A stretch of 35,213 nucleotides of DNA from Sphingobacteriales bacterium (GTDB lineage: Bacteria; Bacteroidota; Bacteroidia; Chitinophagales; Chitinophagaceae). The notes beneath the pieces were generated by a model. The model was not told the DNA's origin and made no database searches. It saw nothing but the letters and a program-made list of their open reading frames with translations. A program made the translations under genes and the position numbers. Below are positions 7,823-13,394 of the stretch, in pieces. Where the stretch lies: the NCBI GenBank assembly GCA_024642285.1, contig JAHEBJ010000025.1:1-35213 (forward strand), read 5' to 3'. The number at the start of each line of letters is the position of its first letter. Position 1 is the first letter of the stretch.

Positions 7823-8185
7823 ATGGGAATGCATAATTTTAGAGAGTTGAAGATTTGGCAAAGGTCAATTGATTTAGCGGAGGCGATATATAAAATTACT
7901 GCCGATTTTCCCAATGAAGAAAAATTTGGGTTGATTTCACAATTACGTAGATGTGTAGTCTCGGTTCCAAGTAATATTTCGGAAGGAGCAGGAAGAGCAA
8001 CTAACAAGCAATTCAAATATTTTCTGGAAATTTCAATGGGCTCTTGCAATGAAGTACAAACGCAATTAGAACTTTCATTTAGATTTAATTTTATCCCGAA
8101 AGAAACACTGGATAAATTGAATGATGAAAATTTACAGATATATAAAATGATTTTAGTTTTTTATAATTCTTTAAAAAGCGAATAG
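7823..8185 (+). CDS. four-helix-bundle protein (S23 / 23S intervening-sequence type)
   Basis: Small helical protein of 120 residues in the family first met as the protein encoded in 23S rRNA intervening sequences and related to Avd of diversity-generating retroelements. Its biochemical role is unsettled. Family marks: FRELKIWQRSIDLAEAIYKIT near the start, FPNEEKFGLISQLRRCVVSVPSNISEGAGR in the middle (residues about 31-59), and KQFKYFLEISMGSCNEVQTQLEL. The helices carry many basic residues. ATG at 7823 is followed by a second ATG two codons on (7829); either could be used. It sits between atpD and atpC and is flanked by inverted AGTATT/AATACT repeats, which points to insertion as a unit. Confidence 0.9.
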   Translation: MGMHNFRELKIWQRSIDLAEAIYKITADFPNEEKFGLISQLRRCVVSVPSNISEGAGRATNKQFKYFLEISMGSCNEVQTQLELSFRFNFIPKETLDKLNDENLQIYKMILVFYNSLKSE

Positions 8186-11609: not shown

Positions 11610-11780
11610 AATAATCCTTTAAAACCGAAACCAGAGGGTTCAGTTTCTGCCCAAGCCTTTTTTCATTTTCCATCCAATTTTTTTTATTACTGAAAATTCA
11701 GCTAACGCAAAACTTTGAATTCAAACCAAGATACACAGGTAGCTTTTCAATTTTTTTTTGTTGGGCCACCTAAATCTGAC
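11610..11780. other. AT-rich spacer after the histidine kinase
   Basis: No coding sequence is seen on either strand. T-rich runs occur (11686-11693, 11749-11759), and GAAAC/GTTTC can pair near 11625-11645 without a following T-run, so no terminator is called. Box arrays for the dcw cluster begin just after this stretch. Confidence 0.5.
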
Positions 11781-11783
11781 TAT

Positions 11784-11819
11784 TCACACTAATCCACAGC
11801 TTTCCACAGTCAATTCACA
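11784..11819 (-). promoter_or_regulatory. phased TGTGR box array upstream of mraZ
   Basis: On the minus strand four TGTGA/TGTGG units lie one helical turn apart: plus-strand TCACA at 11784-11788, CCACA at 11794-11798 and 11804-11808, and TCACA at 11815-11819 (steps of 10, 10 and 11 bp). The units can be read as weak DnaA boxes (TAATCCACA at 11790 differs from TTATCCACA by one base) or as a second, inverted MraZ-type array. An exact DnaA-box match lies at 11872. Confidence 0.5.
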
Positions 11820-11871
11820 TCAAATTTCATTGTTTTTGTCCTATAAGTATACTAATACAGCAATACGGGCT

Positions 11872-11880
11872 TGTGGATAA
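11872..11880 (-). promoter_or_regulatory. exact DnaA-box match TTATCCACA
   Basis: The minus strand reads TTATCCACA, the E. coli-type DnaA consensus. It lies 28 bp before the first MraZ box and 96 bp before the mraZ start. With the array at 11784 it could allow DnaA or a TGTGG-reading protein to act on the dcw promoter. A single 9-mer can occur by chance in AT-rich DNA. Confidence 0.4.
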
Positions 11881-11897
11881 AAAACTTTCCACTAAAA

Positions 11898-11929
11898 TTG
11901 ATTATAAAGTGGGAAAAAGTGTTATTTTG
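11898..11929 (+). promoter_or_regulatory. candidate promoter of the dcw cluster
   Basis: TTG at 11898-11900 and TATTTTG at 11923-11929, spaced 22 bp, resemble the Bacteroidota -33 and -7 elements; the -7 is one T short of TAnnTTTG. The -7 overlaps the second and third MraZ boxes, so MraZ binding would block it. Confidence 0.4.
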
Positions 11930-11934
11930 TGGGA
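11910..11934 (+). promoter_or_regulatory. MraZ operator: three TGGGA-type boxes at 10-bp spacing
   Basis: TGGGA (11910-11914), TGTTA (11920-11924) and TGGGA (11930-11934) are direct repeats separated by 5-bp spacers. This is the architecture known for MraZ operators in E. coli (TGGGN repeats with 5-nt spacers), located 34 bp before the mraZ start. The outer boxes are identical and the middle one is degenerate. Autoregulation of the cluster by MraZ is inferred. Confidence 0.8.
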
Positions 11935-11967
11935 GTATATATGAATTAATACGCTAAATACCTGAAA

Positions 11968-12429
11968 ATGATAGGTTTCCTCGGTGAATATGAGGCCACT
12001 TTAGATGCTAAAGGGCGCTTCCTTTTACCGGCAGGCTTTAAAAAGCAATTGCCGGAAGAGGGTGCTACGCATTTTATTATAAACCGGGGTTTTGAAAAAT
12101 GCCTCACATTATATCCCCAGCAAAGCTGGGATCCTATTTTTTCTGAGATCAGCAAACTGAATGATTTTGATCCCAAGGTAAGAGAATTCAGGCGTTATTT
12201 TTTAAACGGTGCTACCCAACTGGAATTAGATTCAGCAGGGCGGCTGCTGGTTCCGAAAAACCTGACCGAACATGCTGGTTTGGAAAAGGAAATTGTGTTG
12301 GTGTCGGCGGTTAACAAAATTGAGATATGGGATAAAAGTAAGTATATGCAGTTCTTTGAAACTTTTACACCACAATCATTCAGTGATTTGGCAAACGAAG
12401 TGATGAACAGGAAGGAAGGCGATTTGTAA
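11968..12429 (+). CDS. mraZ: transcriptional regulator MraZ
   Basis: DNA-binding regulator with two AbrB/SpoVT-like swapped-hairpin halves, usually forming a ring and repressing its own cluster. The 153 residues carry the two signature loops DAKGRFLLPAGFK (about 14-26) and DSAGRLLVPKNL (about 91-102). First gene of the dcw cluster; its likely operator is the three-box array ending 33 bp upstream. The start ATG gives MIGFLGEYEATLDAKGR, the usual beginning of the family. rsmH follows within about 20 bp. Identification is secure. Confidence 0.97.
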   Translation: MIGFLGEYEATLDAKGRFLLPAGFKKQLPEEGATHFIINRGFEKCLTLYPQQSWDPIFSEISKLNDFDPKVREFRRYFLNGATQLELDSAGRLLVPKNLTEHAGLEKEIVLVSAVNKIEIWDKSKYMQFFETFTPQSFSDLANEVMNRKEGDL

Positions 12430-12449
12430 ACGGTAATTTGAAAAATGGA

Positions 12450-13394
12450 ATGAAAAAAGAAAAGGCCGATAAACAAATTCCAAATTCCAAATTCCCTGAT
12501 TATCATACGCCTGTTTTGCTCGATGAATGCCTGGTAGCTTTAAACATTAAGCCCGATGGCATTTATGTGGATTGCACATTTGGAGGCGGCGGCCATAGTC
12601 GTGCTGTCTTAAAGCAGTTGAGTAAACAGGGAAAATTGATTGTTTTTGACCAGGATGAAGAAGCCGCAGAAAATTTGCCAGAGGATGAACGGATTTTATT
12701 TATTCCACAAAATTTCAGGCACCTGCAACGTTTTTTGAGATTGCACAAGATTGCTAAGGTCGACGGCATTCTTGCTGACCTCGGTGTATCCAGTCACCAG
12801 TTTGATGAAGCCGAACGAGGGTTCTCAATTCGTTTTGATGCTGCACTTGACATGCGCATGGATCAACGGCAAACGGGTACGGCGGCAGATGTCCTGAAAA
12901 CATTTTCCGAATTGCAGTTACACAAAATGTTTGAACAGTATGGCGAAGTAACCAATGCAAAAACACTTGCAAAAACCATCGTTGCACAGCGATCCATATC
13001 TCCCATCAGAACAATCAATGAATTTAAAGCTGCAGTTCAAACCATAGTAAAAGGTAATCCCAATAAATATTTCGCGCAGGTTTTTCAGGCATTGCGGATT
13101 GAAGTGAATGATGAGCTGGGGGCATTAAAGGAAATGCTGCAACAGTCCATAGCAGTATTAAATTCTGGTGGCCGCATCTCAGTGATTACTTTTCATTCTC
13201 TGGAAGACAGGTTAGTGAAAAATTTCTATAAGGCGGGAACTTTTGAGGACACAGTAATAGACGATGTGTATGGGCACCGGTTTGAAAATCCTCTTAAAGT
13301 AATCACAAAAAAACCAGTAACAGCAACTGAAAAAGAGTTGAAAGAAAATTCCCGGTCACGTAGTGCAAAGTTGAGGGTGGCTGAAATGAAGTAA
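12450..13394 (+). CDS. rsmH: 16S rRNA m4C1402 methyltransferase RsmH
   Basis: SAM-dependent methyltransferase (formerly MraW) that methylates N4 of C1402 in 16S rRNA. Motifs: YHTPVLLDECLVAL near the start, the SAM-binding loop DCTFGGGGHSRAVL, DQDEEA, ILADLGVSSHQFDEAERGFS with LDMRMDQ, VFQALRIEVNDELGALKEML, and the C-terminal SVITFHSLEDRLVKNFYK. I chose ATG 12450; an in-frame TTG at 12438 would add four residues. It is co-directional with mraZ and the ftsL-like gene. Confidence 0.97.
   Translation: MKKEKADKQIPNSKFPDYHTPVLLDECLVALNIKPDGIYVDCTFGGGGHSRAVLKQLSKQGKLIVFDQDEEAAENLPEDERILFIPQNFRHLQRFLRLHKIAKVDGILADLGVSSHQFDEAERGFSIRFDAALDMRMDQRQTGTAADVLKTFSELQLHKMFEQYGEVTNAKTLAKTIVAQRSISPIRTINEFKAAVQTIVKGNPNKYFAQVFQALRIEVNDELGALKEMLQQSIAVLNSGGRISVITFHSLEDRLVKNFYKAGTFEDTVIDDVYGHRFENPLKVITKKPVTATEKELKENSRSRSAKLRVAEMK

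Follow-up and report, generated by a model that had tools for sequence, protein, structure and literature searches.

A phased array of DnaA-like boxes lies upstream of the MraZ operator in sampled Chitinophagaceae

Results

The window, a stretch of 35,213 nucleotides (contig JAHEBJ010000025.1, positions 1 to 35,213), comes from a Ferruginibacter-like member of the Chitinophagaceae, and its nearest named relatives are records of Ferruginibacter, a genus of this family. On its plus strand it carries mraZ (11968..12429; PF02381, E 4.2e-35), followed directly by mraW/rsmH (12438..13394; PF01795, E 2.3e-98). The reading frames beyond mraW/rsmH have the appearance of division and cell-wall genes. 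Further upstream, at 7823-8185, lies an ORF of 120 aa which we take to resemble the four-helix-bundle proteins linked to 23S rRNA intervening sequences.

The MraZ operator AAAGTGGGAA AAAGTGTTAT TTTGTGGGAG is located before mraZ on the plus strand (11906..11935) and consists of direct repeats with a 10-bp period, whose GTG cores begin at 11909, 11919 and 11929. The repeats are similar to the core site (AAAGTGKN3)3 given for the MraZ of Mollicutes in the available text of PMC5282649, with a third box that reads TTTGTG and not AAAGTG. The original prediction had assigned three TGGGA-type boxes to the operator, which is correct for the outer two (GTGGGA) but not for the middle one (GTGTTA). Across the family this middle box is nearly always GTGTTATTTT, while boxes of the GTGGTAAAA type were seen by eye elsewhere in the phylum, and the middle box may overlap a promoter element. 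The Bacteroidota-type promoter reads TTTG / TANNTTTG, and inspection by eye of the surroundings of the operator gave only a loose fit to it. By eye, the stretch just 5' of the mraZ start (11950-11967, CTNNTGNNAATG-like) looks conserved across the family.

About 90 bp 5' of the operator lies a second array, which reads CTATTCACA-N-TAATCCACA-N-CTTTCCACA-NN-CAATTCACA on the plus strand. Its four boxes occupy positions 11780..11788, 11790..11798, 11800..11808 and 11811..11819, and their CAC cores begin at 11785, 11795, 11805 and 11816 (steps of 10, 10 and 11 bp), corresponding to TGTGA/TGTGG on the minus strand. Compared with TTWTNCACA, which is stated as the DnaA consensus in the available text of two sources (PMC12371093, PMC6070618), the first three boxes have one mismatch each and the fourth has two, so that none of the four matches perfectly. 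An exact match, TTATCCACA, is found between the array and the operator on the minus strand (11872..11880; plus strand TGTGGATAA). This proximal box is inverted relative to the array, and its GTG lies 36 bp ahead of the first GTG of the operator. Re-reading of the window thus recovered both opposed arrays, the four upstream boxes with their spacing and the exact box in between at the positions where they had been reported. Right after the proximal box, CTTTCCACT at 11885-11893 is a further near match to a DnaA box, which by eye is missing in the relatives inspected.

Phased chains of TNCAC were counted in 20,000 dinucleotide shuffles of positions 11610-11967. Chains of three boxes arose in 3 shuffles and chains of four, the length present in the window, in none. 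The GTG triple did not occur in any of the 20,000 shuffles, and the exact TTATCCACA was found on either strand in 133 of them; a single such box, taken alone, is therefore only mildly unlikely by chance. Within its own genome (3.18 Mb), the triple pattern with 10-11-bp steps matches at this one place only (two overlapping matches). A scan of 90 whole genomes from the genus for three TGTGNA boxes at 10-11-bp steps gave 62 matches in 44 genomes. Of these, 54 are located 147-207 bp upstream of the mraZ start on the opposite strand and 8 elsewhere; the 54 belong to 41 of the 90 genomes, which is a lower bound, since the strict triple pattern overlooks arrays with one poor box. The backward pattern, serving as a control, gave 1 match in the same 90 genomes. 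A pattern with 9-10-bp steps yielded 12 matches against 11 for its backward control over 24 genomes, the match in the own genome being the sole one there and the sole one at mraZ, and carries no weight because it performs no better than the control.

Conservation was analyzed in a set of 138 mraZ loci, of which 135 had the full upstream stretch (3 were dropped) and 87 remained after removal of near-duplicates. To these close family regions were added 20 further ones, namely 19 chosen from the lower part of the family matches listed plus that of the complete genome G114, and 4 from a draw across the phylum; membership in the Chitinophagaceae is inferred for this set from named loci. The 10-10 GTG triple of the operator was present in 86 of the 87 close regions in a search set for that spacing. 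In these 86 regions, the four bins that span -130 to -91 (counted from the operator) held about 11-25 times as many YCACA as expected from shuffling and a single TGTGR; in the -40 bin, TGTGR was counted 73 times (0.9 expected). Counting TNCAC at 10- or 11-bp steps within the last 300 bp upstream, at least two phased boxes were detected in 78/87 close, 16/20 further and 4/4 phylum-draw regions (98/111 in total) and at least three in 68/111, while 13/111 family regions had no phased pair. Conservation of the spacing among relatives was one half of the test set by the original prediction, and its outcome did not refute the prediction.

Outside the family, at least two phased boxes were found in 1/30 regions of another family of the order, 0/15 of the class and 2/30 of the phylum (3/75 in total), and none of the 75 had three or more. 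These outside sets are samples, made up of the best matches among those listed for each search together with 20 regions fetched by place, with start codons assigned by script. The GTG triple was nevertheless present in 23/30, 11/15 and 14/30 of the order, class and phylum regions, respectively, and a GTG pair in 29/30, 13/15 and 28/30. Phased pairs on the opposite strand occurred in 1/111 family regions and in 6/75 regions outside, all six in the order set, and none of them reached three boxes. Since the array is found in 98/111 regions of the family but in 3/75 outside, where MraZ boxes stay common, the upstream array is, in these samples, an addition characteristic of the family to an MraZ operator that is more widely distributed. 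As a separate observation, one other family of the phylum (f24) showed no MraZ match in any of the 9 genomes listed, the completeness of which is 99-100.

The shuffles, the enrichment of YCACA, the specificity of the triple pattern and the counts inside and outside the family led us to reject a chance origin of the array. The array was also considered as a control site of the upstream neighbour. Among the 84 regions with enough flank, the nearest upstream ORF, defined by a mechanical ORF rule, was on the plus strand in 42 and on the minus strand in 42, and it matched the histidine kinase of the window in 32. This candidate was rejected, as the neighbouring genes and their strands vary, and the array therefore follows mraZ and not its neighbour.

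The proximal box shows a similar distribution. TGTGGAWAA was found in 77/87 close, 17/20 further and 3/4 phylum-draw regions of the family, and outside it in 3/30, 1/15 and 1/30 of the order, class and phylum regions. A TGTG was present in the interval in 78/86 regions and absent from 8, and in 70 of the 78 the proximal GTG lies 36 bp before the operator. Array and proximal box occurred together in 70 of the 87 close regions, the array alone in 8, the box alone in 7 and neither in 2.

The boxes of the array have the consensus [TC][TA]ATNCACA, in which CAC is the search core, A3 is present in 75%, T4 in 90% and the final A in 75% of cases, and position 5 can be any base. Judged by its bases, this consensus is nearly that of the DnaA box TTWTNCACA. 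Among the 268 chained array boxes, 34 match TTWTNCACA exactly, 138 have one mismatch and 96 two or more, compared with 0 exact matches and 11 with one mismatch among 150 background CACs. For the step statistics, chains were sought with steps of 9-12 bp, and the 159 steps between same-direction boxes measured 11 bp in 85 cases, 10 bp in 72, and 9 and 12 bp in one case each, with a mean of 10.53 bp and gaps of mostly 1-2 bp. Neighbouring steps compensate each other: of 82 double steps, 56 add up to 21 bp, while 5,000 permutations gave 40.1 +/- 4.4 and at most 55. Array and proximal box also sit in phase on the helix (R 0.69 in 69 regions, against a mean of 0.11 and a maximum of 0.32 in the jitter control), although these phase figures overstate the certainty, as the regions share ancestry and are not independent events. 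The phase is kept even though the distance from the last array box to the proximal box ranges from 45 to 97 bp, and part of this variation may reflect gain or loss of end boxes.

The DnaA protein encoded in the same genome aligns with solved DnaA structures over the DNA-binding domain IV, GGRDHTTVIH included. The fuller domain IV motif is present in 22 of 24 dnaA loci, and one other reads GGFDHTTV. Upstream of dnaA, the array was found on the coding strand in 0/23 regions, and a phased pair was present on the other strand in 2/23 (one of the 24 loci was too short).

GC skew was followed along three genomes. That of G114 turns somewhere from 540 to 700 kb and, in 10-kb bins, changes sign noisily at 640 kb; mraZ lies at 41 kb. 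At 640 kb, two copies of TTTTCCACA, one TTATCCACA, one TTTTTCACA and two near variants are clustered within ~370 bp, ~600 kb away from mraZ. There is no tight 10-11-bp array in this origin-like cluster, and the mraZ gene of G114 is preceded by a proximal box and an array of its own, the latter with three phased boxes. For G002, the turn falls within 880-1030 kb and mraZ at 545 kb, and no more than a weak box cluster was seen, near 925 kb. The skew of G001 is noisy: in 10-kb bins it changes sign at the contig ends, ~0.53 Mb away from mraZ, and only three boxes were seen, near 17.8 kb. To judge from one clear case, that of G114 among the three genomes sampled, the DnaA boxes of the family look standard.

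The G114 cluster (L219:269-580; G114 ~640,268-640,580) lies near the skew turn just 5' of a 720-aa ORF and is a likely candidate origin. A similar box cluster is present in G210 (L262:3997-4138) beside a gene related to this ORF. Among six loci with relatives of the adjacent protein, box clusters were seen in G114 and G210 only, and in this set the protein did not mark an origin in other genera.

Discussion

We propose that the array and the proximal TTATCCACA probably make up a module on which DnaA oligomerises within the promoter region of mraZ. This module would be distinct from the MraZ operator and would regulate mraZ and the dcw genes; we put the probability of this reading at about 0.64. 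DnaA would occupy both the proximal box, which matches the consensus, and the weaker boxes of the array, which share one direction and are 1-2 bp apart, and would grow into an oligomer along a single face of the helix. The replication cycle would then be reflected in the transcription of mraZ and the dcw genes, alongside the autoregulation of MraZ at its operator. As the boxes lie upstream of the operator, our guess is that the effect would be activation or a relief of repression by MraZ. The sites, their conservation, consensus and phase, and their restriction to the family in the samples are observed; binding by DnaA, its oligomerisation, and the direction and timing of any effect are inferred. 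Of the two explanations offered by the original prediction, a DnaA site and a repression loop formed by MraZ, it is the former that is favoured by the consensus, the gap length, the conservation and the phase with the consensus box. Against the DnaA reading speak the imperfect boxes, the 13/111 family regions with no phased pair, the finding that neither dnaA nor the origin-like cluster of G114 has an array of this kind, and the reported ability of Mollicutes MraZ to bind a GTG repeat of 11-bp period (PMC5282649).

Alternatively, the array might bind DnaA in order to titrate it or to exchange its nucleotide, like datA or DARS, and might lie beside mraZ by chance, with little effect on transcription. 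Four boxes within 40 bp are denser than the clear origin-like cluster with its six near matches in ~370 bp, and the strict triple is found in the genus mostly at this single place, as might be expected of such a site. However, the proximal box is mostly at a fixed 36 bp from the MraZ operator and the array is in phase with it, and the array remains at mraZ even though the neighbouring genes change and dnaA lies nearer or farther away in different genomes. We therefore regard a site of this type as unlikely.

That the array is bound not by DnaA but by another regulator of the Chitinophagaceae with a CACA-type motif seems rather improbable. Such a protein could account for an array that is limited to the family in the samples, whereas DnaA is general, and for the lack of a tight array upstream of dnaA (coding strand) or at the G114 origin-like cluster. 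The consensus, its free fifth position, the gaps of 1-2 bp and the exact TTWTCCACA partner, on the other hand, all fit the habits of DnaA.

The repression-loop explanation takes the upstream array for another MraZ operator, inverted, with MraZ rings on the two sites closing a loop. Both arrays have GTG cores at near-10-bp steps. The known MraZ operator of the dcw cluster, as described in the available text of PMC7761207 and PMC5282649, has the same GTG repeats and 10-bp period as the operator before mraZ here, and the upstream array differs from it in register, base preference and spacing. The MraZ of Mollicutes binds the HsdC site (GTGTTAN5)2, which has an 11-bp period, about as strongly as its own site (PMC5282649, available text), so spacing alone is no ground to dismiss MraZ on the array. 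The bases after GTG differ clearly: the array has mostly G/A, A and T (GTG-N-A), while the operator has T/G, mostly T/G, and A (GTG-K-K-A). At position +1 we counted G118 A94 C34 T22 in the array and T146 G111 A1 in the operator, so that A is present in 94/268 and 1/258 boxes, respectively; A occupies +2 in 243/268 array and 17/258 operator boxes, and +3 in 38/268 and 239/258. The array boxes thus differ in base preference from the operator boxes of the same genomes at all three positions. The operator also keeps its exact 10-10 spacing in 86/87 regions, in contrast to the mixed 10/11 steps of the array, and in the samples from outside the family MraZ boxes are retained where the array is missing. 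A loop is accordingly disfavoured, and we consider it improbable. Finally, an array that is itself the chromosome origin, as many DnaA-like boxes in an A+T-rich intergenic region might suggest, is highly improbable and was rejected for the sampled genomes, because the skew turns lie far from mraZ in G114 and G002 (G001 being noisy).

The DnaA module proposed here has counterparts in known systems. In Bacillus subtilis, ftsL sits in an operon beginning with mraZ. PMC8203912 cites in vivo binding of DnaA at the ftsL promoter region of this bacterium (Goranov 2005) and, in Caulobacter, binding of DnaA at the promoter region of ftsZ. Both cases share with ours the presence of DnaA, here predicted, at the promoter region of a division gene. 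B. subtilis, however, belongs to a different phylum and the Caulobacter case concerns another gene, and the available text of PMC8203912 describes neither a conserved phased array or paired MraZ operator for the former nor such an array for the latter. According to the same text, no major effect on the timing of cytokinesis has been shown in any species.

With regard to geometry, E. coli oriC has low-affinity DnaA sites in two groups of four, with 2 bp between neighbours (PMC6070618). The DnaA of Thermotoga recognizes another box sequence, and its two-box complex forms best when the boxes point the same way with 2 bp between them (PMC10316083). As far as the available text of these sources goes, the oriC arrays have in common with the mraZ array their rows of sites at 2-bp gaps and, in E. 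coli, stronger consensus sites close by. In contrast, the gaps before mraZ mix 1 and 2 bp, most boxes are one base off the consensus and not two or more, and the module sits before a gene, away from the origin in the genomes sampled. By analogy, it would resemble an oriC-type array joined by an inverted consensus box. A family-wide phased array before mraZ was not described in the titles and abstract openings of the papers listed by our searches of open-licence literature. DnaA and its type of box are known, and the arrangement of the array before mraZ would be the new part.

More tentatively, and at somewhat less than even odds, the family may have placed an origin-type DnaA module off-origin beside the MraZ operator, where the state of DnaA would directly gate the synthesis of division and cell-wall proteins. 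If true, this would amount to a transcriptional link from replication to division, with two regulators on one promoter region. As the array is family-wide, almost locus-specific and located beside the MraZ operator, such a link would be directly testable in a single promoter region of the Chitinophagaceae.
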